From Phycicoccus sp. Root101 (GTDB lineage Bacteria > Actinomycetota > Actinomycetes > Actinomycetales > Dermatophilaceae), in NCBI RefSeq assembly GCF_001426245.1, contig NZ_LMCM01000006.1, forward strand, positions 408,865-472,864: a stretch of DNA of 64,000 bases, in the 5' to 3' direction. Under the pieces are notes generated by a model that did no database searches, was not told the origin of the DNA, and saw only the letters and a program-made list of their open reading frames with translations. Position numbers and translations under genes: made by a program. This document shows, in pieces, positions 9,091 through 19,087 of the stretch. Every line of letters begins with the position of its first letter. Positions within the stretch are counted from its first letter, which is position 1.

Positions 9091-10133
9091 GCGTCCACCC
9101 TCCCAGATGCGAGCCCGACCAGCCGTGCGGCCTTGACCCGGGTCTCCTCCCACTCACCCGCGGGGTCCGATCCCCACGTGATGCCTGCACCGGTACCGAA
9201 CCGCAACCACCGTCGGCCGTCCGCGCCCCGCTCTGCCCAGAACGTCCGGATGCCGACGGCGAGTTCCGCCGTGCCCGCATCGGCGTCGACCCACCCGACG
9301 GCCCCGCAGTACGGACCGCGAGGGACCGGTTCGAGGTCGGCGATGGCCTGCAGGGCAGTGTGTTTCGGTGCGCCGGACACCGACCCGGGTGGGAAGGTGG
9401 CGGCCATGACGTCCTCCCAGCTCGCCCCGGGACGCAGCTCGCCGGAGACCGTCGACACGAGGTGCACGAGGCCGGGGTGCTCCTCCGGTGCGCAAAGATG
9501 GTCGACCCGCACGGTGCCGGGGCGGCTGACGTGCGACAGGTCGTTGCGCACCAGGTCGACGATCATGACGTTCTCGGCGTAGTCCTTGGGCAGCATCGCC
9601 TCGAGGTGGGTCGCGGTGCCCTTGATGGGCCGCGACTCCAGCTGGTCACCGTCGCGCAGCAGGAACGCCTCCGGGCTCGCGCACACGACGTCGAGTCCCG
9701 CGTCCGGCACGTGGATGCGCGAGGCGTATGGCGCGGGGTTGCCCCGCGCGAGCAGCTGCGCCAGGCCGTCGAGGTCGGCCTCCTCGGCCAGCTCGTGCGA
9801 CATCACCCGGCAGAGGTTGACCTGGTAGACGGTGCCGGCGGCGATGCGGTCGCGGATCTCCCGCACCCCTGCGAGGTAGCCCGCCTCGTCGAGGCTGGTG
9901 CCCCACTCCCCGCGCAGCGGCACCCACGGCACGGTGCGCGCCTTCGGCGGCTGACGCGTCACGTGGGCGAACCGCACGGCAGTGACCGACCCCTCGAACT
10001 CGGCGACCACGGCCCAGAACCCCGAGCCCAGGCCGTCGAGCGCCTCCAGCCCGGACAGGTCCCGACGCACCTCGACGGGCCCGGTCGCGACGAGCGACCC
10101 GAACCGCCCGTGTCCCGATGCGGCCGCCTCCAC
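9087..10133 (-). CDS. pabB: Aminodeoxychorismate synthase component I
   Basis: This 348-residue chorismate-binding enzyme carries the family motifs PIKGTATHLEAML, VDLVRNDLSHVSRPGTV and FPPGSVSGAPK. It should aminate chorismate to 4-amino-4-deoxychorismate together with a glutamine amidotransferase encoded elsewhere. It is shorter than typical PabB (~450 residues) because the N-terminal half is reduced; this is common in actinobacterial PabB-like proteins. The GTG start has TAGGAT 7 nt upstream on the minus strand, suggesting a leaderless message. Isochorismate or anthranilate synthase is unlikely given the downstream pabC. Confidence 0.88.
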   Translation of the reverse strand: MEAAASGHGRFGSLVATGPVEVRRDLSGLEALDGLGSGFWAVVAEFEGSVTAVRFAHVTRQPPKARTVPWVPLRGEWGTSLDEAGYLAGVREIRDRIAAGTVYQVNLCRVMSHELAEEADLDGLAQLLARGNPAPYASRIHVPDAGLDVVCASPEAFLLRDGDQLESRPIKGTATHLEAMLPKDYAENVMIVDLVRNDLSHVSRPGTVRVDHLCAPEEHPGLVHLVSTVSGELRPGASWEDVMAATFPPGSVSGAPKHTALQAIADLEPVPRGPYCGAVGWVDADAGTAELAVGIRTFWAERGADGRRWLRFGTGAGITWGSDPAGEWEETRVKAARLVGLASGRVDA

Positions 10134-10168
10134 GATGGCGATCCTAGGGCGACCTACACTCGGCGCTC

Positions 10169-11359
10169 ATGCGCCCACTCGCAGCGGTCACCGCTGCCGC
10201 CCTCGCGGTCACGCTCACGGCCTCCTGCTCCGCGGGCGCCTCCGACGGGACCGCCACCAGCCGGACGGGCAGCCCGAGCACCCGGCCCGGCGGGACCCCG
10301 AGTGCGAGCGGCACGTCCGCCACGACCACGACGCGCGCGCCCGGGACGTCGTCGACGACGGCGTCGCCCAGCTCCACCACGGCCGCCCGGCCGAGCGACC
10401 CGAACACCCTGACGATGGCGTTCGCCGGGGACGTCCACTTCGAGGACTACCTCGCCCCCCTGGCGTCACGTCCCGACGGCCTCGCCGAGCTGCAGGACTC
10501 CCTCGGCGCCGCCGACCTCGCCATGGTCAACCTGGAGACGGCGATCACGACGCGAGGGACGAAGATCGGCAAGGAGTTCCATTTCCGGGCCCCCGCCTCG
10601 GCGCTGAGGACCGTGCAGGGCGCCGGGGTCGACGCCGTGAGCATGGCCAACAACCACGGCGTGGACTACGGACCGGTCGGGCTGCAGGACACCCTCGCCG
10701 CGAAGCGGACGAGCCCCATCCCGGTCGTGGGCATCGGCGCCGACGAGGACGAGGCCTTCGCCCCGGCGGTCCTGTCGGCCAAGGGCCTGCGGGTCGCTGT
10801 CTTCGGCGCCTCCGAGGTCTTCGAGATGACCCTCTCGCGCTACTCGGCCGGACCGGGCAAGGGCGGCATCGCCAGCGCCGCCCCGGTGACCCGGCTGCGC
10901 AGGGCCGTTGCCGCAGCGTCCAGGAAGTACGACGTGGTCGTGGTCTTCCTGCACTGGGGACTGGACTACCAGAAGTGCCCCGACCCGCTGTCCGCGGAGA
11001 CCGCGCAGGTCCTCGAGGAGGCAGGAGCCGACATCATCGTCGGCGGCCACTCCCACCGGGTCAACGGCGCCGGGTGGCTCGGGCGCTCCTACGTCGCGTA
11101 CGGGCTCGGCAACTTCGTGTGGTGGCGCAGCAAGGAGCCGGACTCCAGGTCCGGCGTGCTCACCTTGTCCCTGGACGTCAAGGCCGCGAAGGGCACCGGG
11201 TCGAACGGCCACAGCGTGGTGCGCACCGCGAGCTGGACGCCCATGCTCATCGGCATCGACGGCATACCCCGTCGTCCGGGGGCCGCGGACACCAAGCGGC
11301 TCCACGGGCTCTGGGAGCAGGCGAACGCGTGCACCGGGCTCGAGTCCCGGCCGAGCTGA
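10169..11359 (+). CDS. CapA-like lipoprotein (metallophosphatase-type PGA_cap domain)
   Basis: This 396-residue lipoprotein has a signal peptide ending in the lipobox region LTASC (Cys20). A Ser/Thr/Pro-rich linker follows to about residue 78. The rest is a PGA_cap domain with AGDVHFED, NLETAI, NNHGVDYG, HWGLDY, GGHSHRVNG and GLGNFVW, the metal-binding motif set of the CapA/PgsA family. CapA takes part in poly-gamma-glutamate capsule export in Bacillus, but most actinobacterial homologues stand alone and have no proven role. The ATG has TACACT 8 nt upstream and is probably leaderless. No capBC genes are nearby, so a capsule function is not implied. Confidence 0.88.
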   Translation: MRPLAAVTAAALAVTLTASCSAGASDGTATSRTGSPSTRPGGTPSASGTSATTTTRAPGTSSTTASPSSTTAARPSDPNTLTMAFAGDVHFEDYLAPLASRPDGLAELQDSLGAADLAMVNLETAITTRGTKIGKEFHFRAPASALRTVQGAGVDAVSMANNHGVDYGPVGLQDTLAAKRTSPIPVVGIGADEDEAFAPAVLSAKGLRVAVFGASEVFEMTLSRYSAGPGKGGIASAAPVTRLRRAVAAASRKYDVVVVFLHWGLDYQKCPDPLSAETAQVLEEAGADIIVGGHSHRVNGAGWLGRSYVAYGLGNFVWWRSKEPDSRSGVLTLSLDVKAAKGTGSNGHSVVRTASWTPMLIGIDGIPRRPGAADTKRLHGLWEQANACTGLESRPS

Positions 11360-11453: not shown

Positions 11454-12545
11454 ATGCAGTTCGGGATCTTCACCGTCGGCGACCTGACCACCGACCCCAC
11501 CACGGGCACCACCGTCAGCGAGCACCAGCGCGTCAAGGACACCGTCGAGCTCGCCAAGCACGTCGAGCAGGTCGGGCTGGACGTCTTCGCGACCGGTGAG
11601 CACCACAACCCCCCGTTCGTGCCGTCCTCCCCCACCACGACGCTGGGATTCATCGCCGCCCAGACCTCGCGGCTGCTGCTGTCCACCTCGACGACCCTCA
11701 TCACGACGAACGACCCCGTGAAGATCGCCGAGGACTACGCGACGCTGCAGCACCTCGCCGACGGTCGTGTCGACCTCATGATGGGCCGCGGCAACACCGG
11801 CCCGGTGTACCCGTGGTTCGGCAAGGACATCCGCGACGGCATCGCCCTCGCCGTGGAGAACTACGCGCTGCTGCGCCGGCTCTGGACCGAGGACGTCGTC
11901 ACCTGGGAGGGCAAGTACCGCACCCCGTTGCAGTCCTTCACCGCCACCCCGCGCCCGCTCGACGGCATCGCGCCGTTCGTCTGGCACGGCTCGATCCGCA
12001 GCCCCGAGATCGCCGAGCAGGCGGCCTACTACGGCGACGGCTTCTTCCACAACAACATCTTCTGGCCGATGAGCCACACCCGTCAGATGGTCGCGCTCTA
12101 CCGTCGCCGCTTCGAGCACTACGGCCACGGCTCGGCCGACCAGGCCATCGTCGGCCTCGGTGGGCAGGTCTTCATGCGGGCCAACAGCCAGGACGCGGTG
12201 CGGGAGTTCCGCCCGTACTTCGACAACGCCCCCGTCTACGGCCACGGCCCGTCGCTGGAGGAGTTCAGCCGGGAGACGCCCCTCACGGTGGGTTCGCCCC
12301 AGCAGGTCATCGAGCGGTATGCCGCGATGGCCGACTCCGTCGGCGACTACCAGCGCCAGCTCTTCCTCATCGACCACGCGGGGCTGCCGCACTCGACCGT
12401 GATGGAGCAGGTCGAGATCCTCGGCACGCAGGTCGTCCCCGAGCTGCGCAGGATCGCCGCCGCCCGCAAGCCGGCCCACGTGCCGGACGCCCCGACCCAC
12501 GCCAGCCGCCTCGCCGCGGCCCGATCCCTGGAGGTCTCCCGATGA
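11454..12545 (+). CDS. LLM class flavin-dependent monooxygenase, CE1758 type
   Basis: This 363-residue protein is a luciferase-like (F420/FMN) oxidoreductase. The barrel opens with MQFGIFTVGD and has TGEHHNPPF, TLITTNDP and the conserved DLMMGRGNTGPVYPWFG. Together with the next gene it matches the two-component set known as CE1758/CE1759, in which the reductase supplies reduced FMN to the monooxygenase. The substrate is unknown. AGAGG precedes the ATG by about 8 nt, and the stop overlaps the reductase start (ATGA). A MarR-type palindrome in the promoter suggests induction by a small, perhaps aromatic or electrophilic, compound; this is inference. Confidence 0.88.
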   Translation: MQFGIFTVGDLTTDPTTGTTVSEHQRVKDTVELAKHVEQVGLDVFATGEHHNPPFVPSSPTTTLGFIAAQTSRLLLSTSTTLITTNDPVKIAEDYATLQHLADGRVDLMMGRGNTGPVYPWFGKDIRDGIALAVENYALLRRLWTEDVVTWEGKYRTPLQSFTATPRPLDGIAPFVWHGSIRSPEIAEQAAYYGDGFFHNNIFWPMSHTRQMVALYRRRFEHYGHGSADQAIVGLGGQVFMRANSQDAVREFRPYFDNAPVYGHGPSLEEFSRETPLTVGSPQQVIERYAAMADSVGDYQRQLFLIDHAGLPHSTVMEQVEILGTQVVPELRRIAAARKPAHVPDAPTHASRLAAARSLEVSR

Positions 12546-13189
12546 CGAGTCCCCTGTCGTCCCAGTCGCGCCCACGCCGGGTCGTGGTGGTCCAGGCGGG
12601 CCTCGGACAGCCGTCGTCGACCCGCCTGCTCGGCGAGCGGCTCGCCGCCGCCACCCGCGACGCGCTGCTCGAGCGCGGGCAGGAGGCGACCGTCGACGTG
12701 GTCGACCTCCGTGAGCACGCCCACGACCTGGCGAACGCGCTCCTCACCGGCTTCCCCAGCGGTGCGCTGCGTGAGGCCGTCGACGCCGTCGCCTCGGCCG
12801 ACGCCGTGATCGCGGTGACGCCGGTGTTCCAGGCGTCCTACAGCGGCCTGTTCAAGACCTTCTTCGACGTCCTCGACGAGGGTTCCCTGCGGGGCACCCC
12901 GGTGCTGATGGCGGCCACCGCAGGCACTGCCCGCCACTCCCTGGTCCTCGAGCACGCGATGCGTCCGATGTTCGCCTACCTCAAGGCCGTGACGGTCCCG
13001 ACGGGTGTGTTCGCGGCGTCCGAGGACTGGGGCGGTGGCGACCCGGGCCAGGGGCTGTCCACCCGTGTCGAGGTCGCCGCGGCCGAGCTCGCCGACCTCG
13101 TGTCGGGGCGTGCCGCTGCGGCGGCACCGGCCCGCAGCGGCACCGAGCTCGCCGACCCGGTGCCCTTCGAGGAGCTGCTGGCCCGCTGA
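12542..13189 (+). CDS. NAD(P)H-dependent FMN reductase, CE1759 type
   Basis: This 215-residue flavodoxin-like reductase has the phosphate-binding loop LGQPSSTRLLGE near the N-terminus and the loop TPVFQASYSGLFKTFFD around residues 96-112, both typical of NADPH-dependent FMN reductases. It should supply reduced FMN to the preceding luciferase-like enzyme, to which it is coupled by an ATGA overlap. The C-terminal 30 residues are Ala-rich and probably disordered. No signal peptide is present, so it acts in the cytoplasm. Confidence 0.88.
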   Translation: MTSPLSSQSRPRRVVVVQAGLGQPSSTRLLGERLAAATRDALLERGQEATVDVVDLREHAHDLANALLTGFPSGALREAVDAVASADAVIAVTPVFQASYSGLFKTFFDVLDEGSLRGTPVLMAATAGTARHSLVLEHAMRPMFAYLKAVTVPTGVFAASEDWGGGDPGQGLSTRVEVAAAELADLVSGRAAAAAPARSGTELADPVPFEELLAR

Positions 13190-13282: not shown

Positions 13283-13358
13283 GCGCACCCTGAGTCATCC
13301 GCAGCGAATTCCTCCGACTCGTGCCGTGGACAGGATCACCACACGGAGGTGGGCAGAG

Positions 13359-14378
13359 ATGGCAGTCGTCAGTGCGTTGCCGGAGCCGAACGAAGGCGAC
13401 CGGCACGGACCACGTGGGGAGCCCGAGCTCCGGCTCGGGCCCGAGACGCTGGCACGCATCAGCGCGGTCGCGGCGCAGCCCGGACAGGCCTGGCGCAGCG
13501 AGCCGCTCGCCCGCAAGAAGGCGTTCGCCCGGCGCCGCGGGGAGCCGGTCGCCAAGGACGCCGCGGCGCCCGACGTCGATGCGGCCCTCGAGCGCATCTT
13601 CCAGAACGCCGACTTCCTCGCCGGGGCGTGGCTGAGCACCGGCGCGACCAAGGCCGATGCCGTGGCGAAGATCAACACCACCAGCGAGCTCGGCACGGGG
13701 TTCCTCGTGTCGCCCTGGCTGCTGATGACCAACAACCACGTCATCGACTCACCCGAGACGGCCTCCGGGTCGGTGGCGTGGTTCCGCTACGTCGAGGACG
13801 CCGACGGCAACATCACCCCGCGCAAGGTCGCCCTGCAGCCCGAGCGCTGCTTCGTGACGAGCCCCCGCGATGCCCTCGACTACACGGTCGTCGCTGTGGC
13901 GCCGCTGGACGGCCAGCCCCCGGGTCAGCAGTTCGGTTCGATCCCGCTGCACGGCGGCGTGGGCAAGATCGTGGTGGGCCAGAACGTCAACGTGATCCAG
14001 CATCCGTCGGGTCGCACACGGGAGATCTGCGTCCGCAACAACCTGCTGCTCGAGGTCGTCGACGACACCTTCGTCCTCTATGGCGCCGACACCGAGCCGG
14101 GCTCGTCCGGGTCACCCGTCCTCAGCGACACGTGGGAGCTCGTGGCCCTCCACCACGCCAGCGAGCAGAAACGCAACGCGCAGAACCAGTACGTCGACGC
14201 CGAGGGCAACCTCGCCACCGACGAGACGCCGGAGTCCAAACGGGTCTGGGTCGCCAACAAGGGAATCCGGGTCTCCGCACTGGTCGCCGACCTCCGTGCG
14301 CGGACCCTCGACGAGAGCAACGGCACCGAGGCTAAGGACCTCGTCGGCCAGATGCTCGGACTGGGAGGAAACATATGA
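13359..14378 (+). CDS. Cytoplasmic trypsin/V8-like serine protease
   Basis: This 339-residue protein has a chymotrypsin-fold peptidase domain from about residue 110. The triad is readable: His128 (LLMTNNHVID), Asp174 (DALDYTVV) and Ser252 (EPGSSGSPV). There is no signal peptide; the first 100 residues are charged and helical. GGAGG stands 9 nt before the ATG; an upstream GTG (13326) is less likely. It is the first of five tightly packed genes and overlaps the next by 4 nt. Leaderless trypsin-like proteases of this kind are known in bacterial conflict and immune gene sets, but no sensor or nuclease is beside this one, so that role is an inference. Confidence 0.85.
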   Translation: MAVVSALPEPNEGDRHGPRGEPELRLGPETLARISAVAAQPGQAWRSEPLARKKAFARRRGEPVAKDAAAPDVDAALERIFQNADFLAGAWLSTGATKADAVAKINTTSELGTGFLVSPWLLMTNNHVIDSPETASGSVAWFRYVEDADGNITPRKVALQPERCFVTSPRDALDYTVVAVAPLDGQPPGQQFGSIPLHGGVGKIVVGQNVNVIQHPSGRTREICVRNNLLLEVVDDTFVLYGADTEPGSSGSPVLSDTWELVALHHASEQKRNAQNQYVDAEGNLATDETPESKRVWVANKGIRVSALVADLRARTLDESNGTEAKDLVGQMLGLGGNI

Positions 14379-15403
14379 GCACCGCCCTGCTCCTCATCCA
14401 CGGTCGCAGCCAGCAGATGCCTGCGGGGAGCGACCGCAGTGACGCCGCGGTCGCCGACTACGTCGCCCGCAAGAAGCGCGAGTGGCTGGCCGGGCTCGCC
14501 AAGGGGGCGACCCTCGCCGGACGGGCCCAGCCCGACGCCGGCGCCGTCTACTTCCCCTACTACGGCAACGTCCTCGCGGACCGGATCGCCGCCCACGAGA
14601 AGGCCGGTGGAACGGCGCCACAGCTCGAGGGGCTCGACGTCGCCGCCCAGGCGAAGGCCACCGGGGAAGACCTCCTGCTCGACGGCGCCGCCGAGATCGG
14701 CTTCGTCGCCTCCCGCCGGCTGGAACAGACCGACCCCGAGCTGGCCGGTGCTGCCCGGGACGTGGAGAAGGCCCGGGCCAGCGGCGAGGAGGCGTCGTGG
14801 GGCGACCTGCTGCGCCCCAAGGTCGTGCGGGAGGCGTTGCGCTTCATCAGCGACAAGACCGGTGCGCCGCAGGCGATCATCACGAGGTTCCTGTCCGACG
14901 TGGCCTACTACCTCGAGGACGACGCCATGCGGGACGCCGTCCAGGAGGTCGTGTCCGCCGCCATCGCGCAGGCCTCTGCCGACGGCCACACCGACCTCGT
15001 CGTCGTCGGCCACAGCCTCGGCAGCTGTGTGGCCTACGACGCCCTGCAGCGCTACACCCCCGGACCTCGCGTGCGGCTGCTGGTCACGGCCGGCTCCCCC
15101 GACGGGTACGCGGTCGTGAAGCGGAACCTCTGGGGCGGCGCCGAAGGGGACGCGGACCGCGGCATACCGGGGGGGATCGAACCGGTCGGTGGAACGCTCA
15201 GGTGGCTCAACGCCTACGACGAGCACGACGTCGTGGCGCTGGTGCACCCGCTGACCCCCTTGTTCGCACCGGGCAGTGACGCGATGCGGGACGAACGGGC
15301 GCAGAACCCCTCGGACCCGCACTCCATCCAGGACTACCTCTCGGACCCCGATGTCGCGGCAGCCGTCCTCGACGCGGTCGGTGCGGCGCAGGAGGTTCCA
15401 TGA
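14375..15403 (+). CDS. Alpha/beta hydrolase (lipase-like)
   Basis: This 342-residue protein has an alpha/beta hydrolase core. The N-terminus ALLLIHGRS carries the oxyanion loop and VVVGHSLGS (Ser near 214) the nucleophile elbow; an Asp in AYDEHD and a His in DPHSIQDY are candidates for the rest of the triad. About 130 residues between the first strand and the elbow are an unusual helical insertion. No signal peptide is seen. The start overlaps the protease stop (ATGA), and the stop overlaps the CHAP-like gene. The substrate could be a lipid or a peptide/ester; nothing decides this. Confidence 0.82.
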   Translation: MSTALLLIHGRSQQMPAGSDRSDAAVADYVARKKREWLAGLAKGATLAGRAQPDAGAVYFPYYGNVLADRIAAHEKAGGTAPQLEGLDVAAQAKATGEDLLLDGAAEIGFVASRRLEQTDPELAGAARDVEKARASGEEASWGDLLRPKVVREALRFISDKTGAPQAIITRFLSDVAYYLEDDAMRDAVQEVVSAAIAQASADGHTDLVVVGHSLGSCVAYDALQRYTPGPRVRLLVTAGSPDGYAVVKRNLWGGAEGDADRGIPGGIEPVGGTLRWLNAYDEHDVVALVHPLTPLFAPGSDAMRDERAQNPSDPHSIQDYLSDPDVAAAVLDAVGAAQEVP

Positions 15404-16323
15404 CCTCGACCGAGGGGACGGACGTCCACACCAACAGCCTCGGTGAGCCCGAGGACGAGCCCGTGCAGACCGACAACGGCCCCAAGGAGGGCGACGGCGA
15501 GGTCCCCGACCAGGACGCGGTCGAGCTCCCCTCACCCGGCGAGCACGAGGCCGCGGGCCTGGCCGGTGCGGTCCTCGCCGAGGCCCTGCGCCACCGCGGG
15601 ACCATCGAGGACCCGGTCGGCAGCAACCGGCAGCCGTTCGGGGCGCAGTACGGCTGGAACGGTGTCGCCTGGTGCAACATCTTCGTGTCCCGCGTGGGGT
15701 TCGGGGTGGCCGGCGACTACGACCTGCTGGGCAAGTTCGCCTCCACCGTGGCGTGCGCGCGGTGGTGGGACGGCCAAGGGCGGTTCGGCCACGAACCCCG
15801 TCCGGGCGCCGCGGTGTTCTTCGACTGGGACGGCGGTCGCCGGATCGACGCCATCGACCACATCGGGCTCGTCGTCGAACCCCTCGCGAACGGACGCGTC
15901 CGCACGATCGAGGGCAACGCCGCCATCCCCGGCAAGAGCGACGGCGTCTGGGTCCACGACCGCTCGACCCGCTTCATCGTGGGCTACGGCTACCCCGCGT
16001 ACTCGGGAGCGGTGCCACTCACCAAGGCGGCTGCCACGCAGGGCCGTGGTGACGCCGCGACGGCCTCCCGCGGGACCGCCCGAGCCCCGGTGGGGACGCC
16101 CCCGCCGTTCCCGGGACTGATGAGGAAGGGGTCCACCGGCCCGGGGGTGCTGGCCCTCCAGCGCCGCCTCGTCCAGCGCGGGTGGGAGCTCGACGCCGAC
16201 GGCGAGTTCGGGCCCGTGACCGACCGCGTCGTCCGCGGGTTCCAGCAGGACAAGGGGCTCGAGGTGGACGGTGAGGTCGGGCCGAGGACGTGGTCCGCGC
16301 TCTGGACCACCCCGGTGACCTAG
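15400..16323 (+). CDS. CHAP-like amidase with C-terminal peptidoglycan-binding domain
   Basis: This 307-residue protein starts with an acidic disordered region (1-50). A NlpC/P60-CHAP-like domain follows, with Cys92 in GVAWCNIF, His154 in AIDHIGLVVE and a polar residue in EGN (171-173). A PG_binding_1 domain occupies 238-302 (two-repeat helical motif ending in GPRTWSALW). The domains point to cleavage and binding of cell wall peptides, yet there is no signal peptide, so it is either released by lysis, exported by a non-Sec route, or used inside the cell. It overlaps the hydrolase gene by 4 nt. Phage endolysins are similar but no phage genes surround it. Confidence 0.85.
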   Translation: MTSTEGTDVHTNSLGEPEDEPVQTDNGPKEGDGEVPDQDAVELPSPGEHEAAGLAGAVLAEALRHRGTIEDPVGSNRQPFGAQYGWNGVAWCNIFVSRVGFGVAGDYDLLGKFASTVACARWWDGQGRFGHEPRPGAAVFFDWDGGRRIDAIDHIGLVVEPLANGRVRTIEGNAAIPGKSDGVWVHDRSTRFIVGYGYPAYSGAVPLTKAAATQGRGDAATASRGTARAPVGTPPPFPGLMRKGSTGPGVLALQRRLVQRGWELDADGEFGPVTDRVVRGFQQDKGLEVDGEVGPRTWSALWTTPVT

Positions 16324-16336
16324 GGACGGACGACCC

Positions 16337-17086
16337 GTGATGAGGACGCACCGCGCTTCGCACCGCACGTCACGACCTGCCCGGTCGCACGCGGCGGCGG
16401 TGCTGGCCGTCGGGGTGCTCCTGCTGGGTGGGTGCGCGGCGAGCGGTGGCTCGGGTGGTGCGACCGCAGCCGGCGACCCCGGCAACGGCTCCTCGCAGGC
16501 GTCCGGGGACAGCGAGACCTTCGACTCCCCCGAACCCGAGCCCACGACCCCGGACAGCTCCGACAGCTCGACCTCGGACGACGCCCCGGCGATCGCGGTG
16601 GCCAGGCTCCCCATCGGCGGCGATGCGCAGGACGACGGTGACGACCCCCGGCTCCAGTGCGCCCACGTCACGTGGATCGCCAGTCCCGACGGGCAGATCC
16701 CGCGGGGGACCGGCATCGAGATCACCCGGGTGCTGTTCGACCCCGCGTCGTTCGAGGCGGTCGACCAGGGGTGCGGCTCGGAACGCCCGAGCTGCCTGCA
16801 CTACGTCTTCCGGACATCGGCCCTGCAGTGCGACCTCCCCGTCCGGGCCACCGGCGACGTCGCCCAGGACGCGAACCCCTCGCTCGGCTTCGCCGGCCTC
16901 GTCTTCTGCCCCGACCCGACCTCGGCGACGTGTCGGCACTTCGTCGGCGCGCTCGCGAACGAGCAGCAGCTCTCGGTGTCGCTCAACGTGCCGCAGCTGC
17001 CGCCCGGGTCCGGCGATGCCAGCACCGACACGAGCAGCGACTCGGGCACCGACACGGGCACGGACGCCACGACCGACGGCGGATGA
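16337..17086 (+). CDS. Lipoprotein of unknown function
   Basis: This protein of 249 residues has a signal peptide with lipobox LLLGGC (Cys33). A Gly/Ser/Thr/Asp-rich linker runs to about residue 85, then a globular domain with six cysteines, suggesting disulfides, and an Asp/Ser/Thr-rich C-terminal tail. I recognise no family. The GTG at 16337 or the ATG at 16340 can start it, 13 nt after the CHAP-like gene. It overlaps the following membrane gene (ATGA). Its surface location places one member of this operon outside the membrane, where a wall hydrolase would act. Confidence 0.8.
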   Translation: MMRTHRASHRTSRPARSHAAAVLAVGVLLLGGCAASGGSGGATAAGDPGNGSSQASGDSETFDSPEPEPTTPDSSDSSTSDDAPAIAVARLPIGGDAQDDGDDPRLQCAHVTWIASPDGQIPRGTGIEITRVLFDPASFEAVDQGCGSERPSCLHYVFRTSALQCDLPVRATGDVAQDANPSLGFAGLVFCPDPTSATCRHFVGALANEQQLSVSLNVPQLPPGSGDASTDTSSDSGTDTGTDATTDGG

Positions 17087-17925
17087 TGGCCGCCGACGAG
17101 CCGGCCCGCGGGGTCTCGTGGGACCGCGTCTACAGCGTGGCCGGCAACATCGTGGCGCCCGCCACCGCACTGAGCACCCTGCTGTTCTACTTCGGCTACG
17201 TCTCGACCCGGGCGCAGTACCTCTACTTCGGGCTGGACGTCGACACGATCGGGCTCTCGACCCAGAGCTTCGTCATGCGCAGCCCGGGTCCGCTGCTCGT
17301 GCCGCTGCTCGTCCTGGTCCTGCTGGTGGCCGGTGCCATCGCCGCGAACCGCTGGCTCGCGCCGCGACTGACGCGACGCGCCTCGCTCGCCCTCGCCGTC
17401 GGAATGGGGCTCCTCGCCGCCGGGCTCGTGCTGCTGTTCGCCTACGCGATGGTCGGCCGGTGGCCGTACTACCCCTTGGTCACGCCAGTCCTCATGGCGC
17501 TGGGAGGCACCGTCACGGCATACACCCTGGGGTTGCGTGGGAGCTCGATCCGGCTGCGGGTCGCCCTCTGGATCACCGTGGCGGCAGCCGTTTTCTGGGC
17601 CAACGCCACCGTGGCCCAGTGGTCGGGGACGGGACTGGCGCAGGAGCAGGCGGGGCACCTCGAGGACCTCCCGCGGGTCGTCGTCGACACCCGCGAACGG
17701 TTGTACCTGCGCAGCCCCGACATCACCGAGACGGCCTTGCCGGTCGAGGAGGGACAGACCTTCCGCTACCGGTACCGAGGGCTGCGCCTGCTGGTCCAGA
17801 ACGGCGACCGGATGTTCCTCGTCCCCTGCTCCGAGCAGGTCTCCCCCTGCCCGCACCGGCCAGGCAGCGCGACGATCGTCGTGCGGTGGAACGACAGCAC
17901 GCGGGTCCAGTTCGTCGCCCCCTGA
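17083..17925 (+). CDS. Polytopic membrane protein, unknown function
   Basis: This 280-residue protein has about five hydrophobic segments in the first 175 residues (around 18-40, 62-84, 98-120, 128-146 and 156-172). An extracytoplasmic C-terminal domain of about 100 residues follows, with a Cys pair in VPCSEQVSPCPH. Strings such as FYFGYVSTRAQYLYFGLD resemble actinobacterial membrane proteins of unknown role, but I cannot name the family. Its ATG overlaps the lipoprotein stop. It closes the five-gene operon; lipoprotein and membrane protein may form a surface complex, which is inference. Confidence 0.8.
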   Translation: MMAADEPARGVSWDRVYSVAGNIVAPATALSTLLFYFGYVSTRAQYLYFGLDVDTIGLSTQSFVMRSPGPLLVPLLVLVLLVAGAIAANRWLAPRLTRRASLALAVGMGLLAAGLVLLFAYAMVGRWPYYPLVTPVLMALGGTVTAYTLGLRGSSIRLRVALWITVAAAVFWANATVAQWSGTGLAQEQAGHLEDLPRVVVDTRERLYLRSPDITETALPVEEGQTFRYRYRGLRLLVQNGDRMFLVPCSEQVSPCPHRPGSATIVVRWNDSTRVQFVAP

Positions 17926-18319: not shown

Positions 18320-19087
18320 ATGAGTGCACTTGAGCGTTTCTCCCTCGCGGGCCGCGTCGCCGTCGTGACCGGAGGGACGCGCGGGCTCGGTGCCGGGTTC
18401 GCCGAGGCGCTCGGGGACGCCGGCGCCAGCGTGGTCCTCGTCGGACGTGACGTGTCCGCAGCGGAGGGTGTGCTCGCGACGTTGCGCGCCAAGGACATCC
18501 GCACCGAGTTCGTCGAGGCCGACGTCACCGTGCCCGACGACGTCCAACGCGTGCTCGACGCGACGCTCGCAGCCTTCGGGCGGGTCGACATCCTCGTCAA
18601 CAACGCCGGTGCCTGCGTCCACGCGCCCGCCCTGGACGTCACGCCGGAGGACTGGCGGGCCGTCATGGCGGTCAACGTCGACGCCGTGTGGACCTGCTCG
18701 CAGACGTTCGGTCGTCACTTCGTCGCCGAGGGGTCCGGGTCGATCGTCAACATCGGCTCGATGTCGGGCTTCATCGTCAACCGACCACAGTGGCAGCCCG
18801 CGTACAACGCCTCGAAGGCCGCGGTCCACCACCTGACCCGCAGCCTCGCCGCCGAGTGGGCGCCGCACGGAGTCCGGGTCAACGCCCTCGCCCCCGGCTA
18901 CATCAAGACCGACATGTCGCCGGTCGACGACCCGAAGTTCCGCCAGCACTGGATCGAGGACGCACCGATGCGGCGCTACGGCACCGTCGAGGAGCTCGCG
19001 CCCGCCGTGGTCTTCCTCGCCAGCGACGCGTCGTCGTTCGTCACGGGGTCGGTCCTCGTGGCCGACGGCGGGTACACCACGTTCTGA
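18320..19087 (+). CDS. SDR family oxidoreductase
   Basis: This 255-residue short-chain dehydrogenase has the Rossmann motif TGGTRGLG (17-24), NNAG near 95, the catalytic Ser in NIGSMSG and YNASK. It reduces or oxidises a carbonyl/hydroxyl with NAD(P)(H). The overall pattern (AVNVDAVWTCSQ, PGYIKTDM) is near gluconate 5-dehydrogenase or sugar/polyol dehydrogenases, but SDR substrate calls by eye are weak. TAGATT stands 7 nt before the ATG, without a Shine-Dalgarno site, so the mRNA is likely leaderless. It is followed by osmC-like and CorA-like genes in the same direction. Confidence 0.88.
   Translation: MSALERFSLAGRVAVVTGGTRGLGAGFAEALGDAGASVVLVGRDVSAAEGVLATLRAKDIRTEFVEADVTVPDDVQRVLDATLAAFGRVDILVNNAGACVHAPALDVTPEDWRAVMAVNVDAVWTCSQTFGRHFVAEGSGSIVNIGSMSGFIVNRPQWQPAYNASKAAVHHLTRSLAAEWAPHGVRVNALAPGYIKTDMSPVDDPKFRQHWIEDAPMRRYGTVEELAPAVVFLASDASSFVTGSVLVADGGYTTF

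Follow-up and report, generated by a model that had tools for sequence, protein, structure and literature searches.

The 64,000-nucleotide stretch of the Phycicoccus sp. Root101 genome analysed here (contig NZ_LMCM01000006.1, positions 408,865 to 472,864; referred to as the window) contains a run of five plus-strand genes, designated A to E, that extends from 13359 to 17925 in a host genome of 4.4 Mb. The five genes are real and lie where an earlier note on this DNA had placed them. Gene A (13359..14378, 339 aa) encodes a leaderless trypsin/V8-like serine protease with the triad H127-D174-S250, and gene B (14375..15403, 342 aa) a leaderless PGAP1-like alpha/beta hydrolase with the triad S214-D285-H316 and about 12 extra residues behind its HG motif. 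Gene C (15400..16323, 307 aa) codes for a leaderless protein with CHAP and PG_binding_1 domains that resembles actinophage endolysins. Genes D (16337..17086) and E (17083..17925, 279 aa) encode partners, respectively a Cys-rich lipoprotein and a membrane protein with three or more transmembrane segments and a C-terminal soluble part.

There are several features of the run that define its organization. First, the A-B and B-C junctions are 4-base ATGA overlaps, as is the D-E junction at 17083, and the stop codon of C is separated from D by 13 nt if D starts at the GTG at 16337 or by 16 nt if it starts at the ATG at 16340. Second, ribosome sites are strong at the starts of B and C, clear at that of A, where GGAGG lies 5′ of the ATG at 13359 (the stop codon ends at 14378), and less clear at those of D and E; an alternative GTG start for A at 13326 would give a longer product and is possible, with no comparable ribosome site. 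Third, the third-position GC content is 0.91 in A and B and 0.94 in C, high like that of other genes here. Fourth, a simple scan finds no hydrophobic segment in A, B or C, a single N-terminal one in D accompanied by the lipobox LGGC, and three above threshold in E, which ends in a long soluble tail. Scans for promoters, terminators and RNA families gave nothing above chance. The genes are two units, a tightly coupled A-B-C, in which A and B are linked in translation, and a separate pair D-E. The earlier note had described five genes with ATGA overlaps and a 13-nt gap, encoding a leaderless trypsin-like protease with an intact triad, a leaderless lipase-like hydrolase, a leaderless CHAP-like protein with a peptidoglycan-binding domain, a lipoprotein and a membrane protein, and this description is borne out by these observations and by the family assignments below.

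The separateness of D and E is apparent from their distribution. Neither has a credible Pfam family. A family search of 186 genomes with E matched 17, 14 of them outside the genus, and E loci of 3.9 to 16 kb each were fetched from 11 of these 14. None of the 11 has A, B or C near E; a D match adjoins E in six, and an unaligned lipoprotein-like gene lies beside it in three more. In L083-L087 the D-E pair adjoins a gene read as pta, and on a different contig an A-like gene is present in one E-bearing genome (G044) and a B-like gene in another (G045). Since none of A, B and C accompanies E at any of the 11 loci, D-E is a separable pair, and we reject the single five-part system, with one joint role, that the earlier note had envisaged. 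D-E is instead a separate envelope pair in the same insert, and may be a passenger, an anchor or a guard.

The A-E block is an insertion between two housekeeping genes, an NADPH-dependent FMN reductase to the left (12542..13189, plus strand) and a short-chain dehydrogenase (SDR) to the right (18320..19087, plus strand). The reductase is matched in all 11 genus genomes and the SDR in eight at the cut used, and the two are neighbours in six. With A-E between them they lie 5133 bp apart in the host, 7325 bp in G138 and 7138 bp in G140 (Pedococcus bigeumensis), and without it 236 bp (G144), 660 bp (G143) and 1070 bp (G141). The block is carried by three of the 11 genomes, strong matches to A and B are likewise confined to three, and the five-gene order, whose conservation the earlier note had proposed checking, is kept in G138 and G140, the two relatives that have all five. 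The P. bigeumensis locus (L002, ~9930-10949) has an extra frame between C and D for a membrane protein in which seven hydrophobic segments, but no Pfam family, are found. Of the ten flanking genes that were scanned, nine match families of a metabolic, transport, stress or capsule type and one, of 74 aa, has no family; neither these genes nor A-E include a phage or secretion gene; Pfam finds no secretion-tag domain in A-E.

Gene A matches Trypsin_2 in Pfam (1.7e-20), with the N-terminal ~85 residues falling outside any Pfam family. Its triad is invariant in the homologue alignments A3 and A4, and its closest solved relatives by sequence are V8/Spl-type proteases. In the A4 search of 396 actinobacterial genomes (a sample like that used for the B family, with which it shares locus handles), each of the five non-self loci reaching E≤1e-45 is a fusion with a hydrolase, which is B-type in three (the trypsin-B fusions of the phylum sample described below) and Endonuclease_NS (the NucA nuclease) in two. 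A plasmid search with A returned 63 records, and an endonuclease is annotated under the trypsin match in 26 of the 60 listed, a count that includes several near-identical strains. The family search matched seven genomes outside the genus: G136 has a trypsin-Endonuclease_NS fusion, G176, which was scanned, has an EAD1-trypsin adjoining an AAA/NACHT protein, four others (G044, G170, G172 and G173) resemble this arrangement by eye, and the seventh match is in G036. Among 11 plasmid neighbourhoods of A-type trypsins, picked by eye and not at random, that of Aulosira adjoins a VMAP-C/EAD8 protein, that of Rhizobium sp. 007 lies between two annotated nucleases, and the Nonomuraea neighbourhood is without annotation. 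Sequence comparison places A in a trypsin family whose members are often fused or adjacent to destructive hydrolases, whether nuclease, lipase or wall hydrolase.

Gene B has sub-threshold Pfam matches only (PGAP1 7.5e-5, Abhydrolase_6 1.7e-4), and in alignment A1 its H9-G10, S214, D285 and H316 are kept in 18 of 18 homologues. The phylum sample of 396 actinobacterial genomes gave 20 non-self matches at E≤1e-20, and each of the 12 reaching E≤1e-40 has a partner to which it is fused or adjacent. The partner is a trypsin in the same open reading frame (ORF) in three (L123, L124 and L127), and in the other nine (L125, L126 and L128-L134) it is a protein in which HG and DxC motifs of caspase type lie 45-60 residues apart. 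Both motifs are present in all nine, some of which were missed by a stricter motif pattern; five (L125, L126, L128, L133 and L134) were found by profiles not built from them, and those that found L129-L132, larger AAA/STAND or WD40 proteins, were partly built from these loci and are not independent of them. Matches above 1e-35 were taken as other alpha/beta hydrolases, and none of the eight weaker ones is adjacent to a protease-type partner; the cut is not a clean one, because two trypsin genes lie ~4 kb from the weaker match L135, within one run of genes.

Other samples give a similar picture of the B family. The family search found it in 12 of 186 genomes at 13 places, with a trypsin at three (all in this genus), a caspase-type protein fused or adjacent at six (L026, L027, L029, L030, L031 and L035) and a caspase-type ORF ~2 kb upstream at one (L028); at the remaining three (L032-L034) no partner is convincing. 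A plasmid search returned 48 records, and seven of the eight neighbourhoods viewed have a protease-type partner: a Pfam C14 caspase in Hymenobacter, Sinorhizobium terangae, Agrobacterium and Leptolyngbya, a CHAT protein in S. fredii, and a trypsin that is separate in Rhodococcus and fused in Streptomyces; the eighth, from Nonomuraea, showed none. Trypsin and B share one ORF in Nocardia, in a Streptomyces plasmid and in three sampled genomes. Searches of phages gave two weak records and searches of viral contigs five loci, of which three were checked with profiles, L145 and L146 having a caspase-type partner and L143 none. B shares invariant motifs with hydrolases beside Pfam-confirmed caspases, and at L134 its homologue is paired with a caspase-type protein carrying VMAP-M2. 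These comparisons place B in a hydrolase family regularly fused or adjacent to a trypsin, caspase-type or CHAT partner. Homologues occurring without each other was what the earlier note held would refute a shared role. This is the case for D-E. It also holds partly for A, which has nucleases as further partners, and for B, which has caspases; yet an exchange of partners of this sort is just what modular protease-effector systems show.

Several further features of the B-associated loci were noted. The caspase and B-type hydrolase pair of L146 (2959-10200) lies on a 10.9 kb IMG/VR contig and may travel on an inovirus, since its neighbours read by eye as an integrase, a replication protein and a Zot-like filamentous-phage protein. 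At L026 (5889-8972) in-house profiles find a caspase-type domain and a B-type hydrolase in a single 1028-aa ORF, neither domain being found by Pfam at E≤0.001 in the part scanned. Caspases adjoining B-type hydrolases (L017, L019, L027, L125, L126 and L128) appear by eye to have similar C-terminal ends, mostly S-F/L-W-x-x-F/Y, or E-F-W-T-T-L in the case of L128, followed by a helix-like stretch, and this could be a docking or substrate segment.

The spacing of conserved residues in B differs between B proteins with a separate trypsin and the others. We entered 31 sequences in this comparison and measured 28, there being no usable row for L125 and L133, whose starts were guessed, or for the distant hydrolase L181. 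The H9-W37 spacing is 28 residues in all four proteins with a separate trypsin (the window, G138, P. bigeumensis and Rhodococcus) and 15-18 in the 24 others, and the S214-W277 spacing is 60-63 in the former and 48-56 in 23 of the latter, with 61 in one. These insertions beside the predicted active site are suggestive only, and point to possible gating.

Gene C matches PG_binding_1 (8e-17) and CHAP (1.4e-7) in Pfam. The similarity to actinophage endolysins such as Streptomyces phage Lilbooboo gp19 spans the CHAP and PG-binding region, with 30-35% identity to Streptomyces phage endolysins over 69-77% of C (15 listed of 135 phage records), and in the one actinophage region viewed the C counterpart is annotated as lysin A. 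C differs from these proteins in that identity is limited to this level, in having an acidic N-terminal extension and in lacking a phage neighbourhood. A possible CHAP gene in third position on the Rhodococcus plasmid, suspected from a few residues, was dropped after the frame was read and searched. In other genomes of the host's taxonomic family, C-like CHAP and PG-binding proteins adjoin a ~455-481 aa protein with hydrophobic stretches and no assigned family at L099 (5134-9081) and L100 (5052-7135), the former being also near a 545-aa protein that is SGNH-like by eye. At L149 (5956-9971, a plasmid of Streptomyces sp. NBC_01340) a similar gene is followed downstream by a small gene and a caspase-like one, and these two together resemble by eye a two-gene EACC1-type system.

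Sets of proteases, lipases and wall enzymes also occur elsewhere. Plasmid pGM3709_07 of Geminocystis sp. NIES-3709 (L152, 1468-7431) has an operon-like run consisting, in order, of a trypsin-GDSL lipase, a GH19 plus PG_binding_1 protein, a TPR lipoprotein, an Amidase_2 protein and a trypsin-M74 murein endopeptidase; the GDSL match (1e-6) is slightly below the Pfam cut-off and the wall enzymes have no hydrophobic leader. A Hymenobacter canadensis plasmid (L182, 3315-9708) has an Amidase_2 plus PG_binding_1 gene adjoining a trypsin-S8 fusion, followed by an M19-like protein and a second annotated amidase. In a Qingshengfaniella alkalisoli plasmid (L181, 2944-5466) an LCAT/PGAP1-like alpha/beta hydrolase precedes a trypsin in one ORF, the reverse of the order in the actinobacterial trypsin-B fusions. 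We also note a Deinococcus taeanensis plasmid protein (L151, 4696-6300) that combines a caspase domain with PG_binding_1.

We favor, with some reserve, the interpretation that A-B-C is a protease-gated lysis module. The coupling of the three parts is well supported at the level of sequence; the activation, order, trigger and antiphage role proposed here are drawn from knowledge of the families and from published analogues. A trigger would switch A from an inactive to an active form, and active A would process B, for which the clade-specific insertions next to the active site are possible cleavage points. Active B would cleave membrane lipid from inside the cell, and the leaky membrane would allow C to reach and cut the wall, with B doing the work of a holin. 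The outcome would be cell lysis, most likely as abortive infection or another programmed death. The absence of leaders in A, B and C fits action inside their own cell, as with phage endolysins. The earlier note had listed programmed lysis or abortive defence among its possibilities, and the protease and effector partnerships of the A and B families make this a fitting description of A-B-C, although not of a five-part system.

Several observations weigh against this interpretation. First, as far as examined, the link of C with A-B is confined to this genus (three genomes), C relatives on Streptomyces and Nonomuraea records are without A or B, and the Rhodococcus A-B pair is without C. Second, several of the A-type trypsins viewed on plasmids of cyanobacteria lack a neighbouring lipase or wall enzyme, including those in two Nostoc neighbourhoods and one of Tolypothrix (a T5orf172 protein lies near one of the Nostoc trypsins). 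Third, no protease was found near the B-like genes of L033, L034, L020 and the phage locus L143, and at L032 the one candidate is a weak caspase-type match encoded by the other strand. Fourth, the caspase nature of the L129-L132 and WD40-type partners rests mainly on two motifs: Peptidase_C14 is not among the Pfam matches listed for L129-L132 and the actinobacterial WD40-type partners, and profile-profile comparison with Pfam-confirmed caspases is weak (probability 61, 28, 32 and 6% for L129, L130, L131 and L132, and 49% for L030/L035). Fifth, lipid as the substrate of B is suggested by profile matches to PGAP1, class 3 lipase and phospholipase A2 that are all weak. Sixth, the four B proteins with a separate trypsin are each other's closest relatives in the set, and the insertion may be only a clade marker. 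Finally, no sensor (STAND, EAD or VMAP) was found in A-E or the ten flanking genes scanned, and the two PADLOC matches at the flanks, for which the models are of an oxidoreductase and of CorA, are not defence-specific.

Another explanation is that A and B are a functional pair, a trypsin-gated hydrolase of a cytosolic conflict system, and that C, D and E are passengers at a shared insertion site. We think this doubtful, and take it as the most serious of the alternatives. A and B occur without C in Rhodococcus, Nocardia and Streptomyces, C relatives occur elsewhere without A-B, and E is apart from A-C at each of the 11 loci in other genera; however, B and C overlap by ATGA and a strong ribosome site is present there, the position of C is kept in all three block-bearing genomes of the genus, and in Geminocystis and Hymenobacter, too, wall hydrolases without a leader lie near trypsins of the A type. 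It is considerably harder to see A-E as an envelope maintenance or remodelling operon in which A, B and C act with D and E at the cell surface. The presence of two envelope proteins in the same gene run is in keeping with such a role, but A, B and C have neither leader nor transmembrane segment, strong matches to A and B are limited to three of 11 genus genomes, and relatives of A and B lie in caspase, STAND or nuclease contexts, so that we give low weight to the envelope remodelling that the earlier note had raised.

Two further explanations seem to us very improbable. If the block were what is left of a prophage lysis cassette in which C had been the endolysin and E the holin, this would account for the leaderless endolysin-like enzyme, but A-E and the ten flanking genes scanned are devoid of phage genes, E has 279 aa and a long soluble tail and in other genera accompanies D where C is not close by, no A or B counterpart is annotated in the one actinophage lysis region viewed, and B finds only two weak phage records. 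Equally improbable is the export of the proteins by a non-Sec route against other cells, for which leaderless lytic enzymes with three activities might seem suited, as A-E and the ten flanks scanned contain no secretion gene (the remainder of the genome was not searched), Pfam finds no secretion-tag domain in A-E, and nothing was found in support of the export or predation suggested by the earlier note.

The protease-gated module has counterparts among published systems, and departs from each. The NucA-trypsin systems (System 3), for which a proteolytic cascade is proposed by Kaur et al. 2020 (PMC7159879), share the same kind of trypsin, A being homologous to trypsin-Endonuclease_NS fusions; however, there is no Endonuclease_NS match in A-E (E≤1) or the ten flanking genes (E≤0.001), A-E has no EAD1, and the partners here are an alpha/beta hydrolase and an endolysin-like protein. 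The same paper mentions lysozyme and papain-like peptidoglycan peptidase effectors, and describes a caspase domain of VMAP proteins that is always accompanied by a neighbouring alpha/beta-hydrolase gene. B probably belongs to the same hydrolase family as the latter, as judged from the description, but its neighbour is Trypsin_2, there is no Peptidase_C14 in A-E, and no VMAP, MoxR or vWA was found in A-E or the ten flanks, to which the scan was confined. Alpha/beta hydrolases are named as membrane-lipid effectors in PMC8195603.

Protease-activated pro-nucleases have been demonstrated in antiviral immunity (PMC12799240, Science 2025), and the paper reports trypsin and caspase alternatives in canu-type pairs, allows that other classes of enzyme may be proteolytically activated, and proposes active-site-blocking insertions as a hallmark of gated enzymes. 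A and B would follow the same two-gene logic of a protease and a gated hydrolase, but with alpha/beta and wall hydrolases in place of an MBL-fold nuclease, which has no match in A-E. In the LypABC system (PMC13236601, Nat Microbiol 2026), LypC has a trypsin-like domain (aa 1-335), to which A is likened by description and not by sequence, and an endonuclease domain (aa 354-662); the paper states that the peptidase site is needed for cell lysis, that the final lytic effector is unknown, and that phospholipases replace gasdermins in some CARD-NLR variants. Here a trypsin is present, with lipid as a putative substrate of B; there is no NACHT or AAA match in A-E or the ten flanks and no CARD/NLR protein was found among the genes scanned. 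Caspase and alpha/beta hydrolase pairs, NucA-trypsin systems and protease-activated nucleases are thus already known from these papers; what sets A-B-C apart from them is a stand-alone trypsin paired with an alpha/beta hydrolase and a leaderless endolysin-like enzyme, and among open-licence papers we found no unit of this composition.

A more far-reaching proposal, which we advance only tentatively, is that A-B-C, as a lysis cassette that arose in cells, is self-contained and works without a holin. In a phage lysis cassette, too, an endolysin-like enzyme has no leader, but the ten genes flanking A-E are not phage genes and the candidate holin E occurs apart from C; a protease-activated lipase might have replaced the holin and would open the membrane to an endolysin captured from a phage, and a single protease switch would then destroy both membrane and wall. 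The Geminocystis operon would then be a separate build of the same kind, and effectors of this kind could be the executioners that LypABC-like systems still lack.

These findings have several implications. The A-B-C unit makes it testable whether protease gating extends to membrane and wall enzymes, and whether two of them can act in sequence. The combination of a trypsin with a lipase-like and a wall hydrolase likewise makes testable the question of the final effector in LypABC-like lysis, as it is posed in PMC13236601. Lastly, the B family, which swaps trypsin, caspase-type and CHAT partners, is a marker by which further systems of this type may be found.

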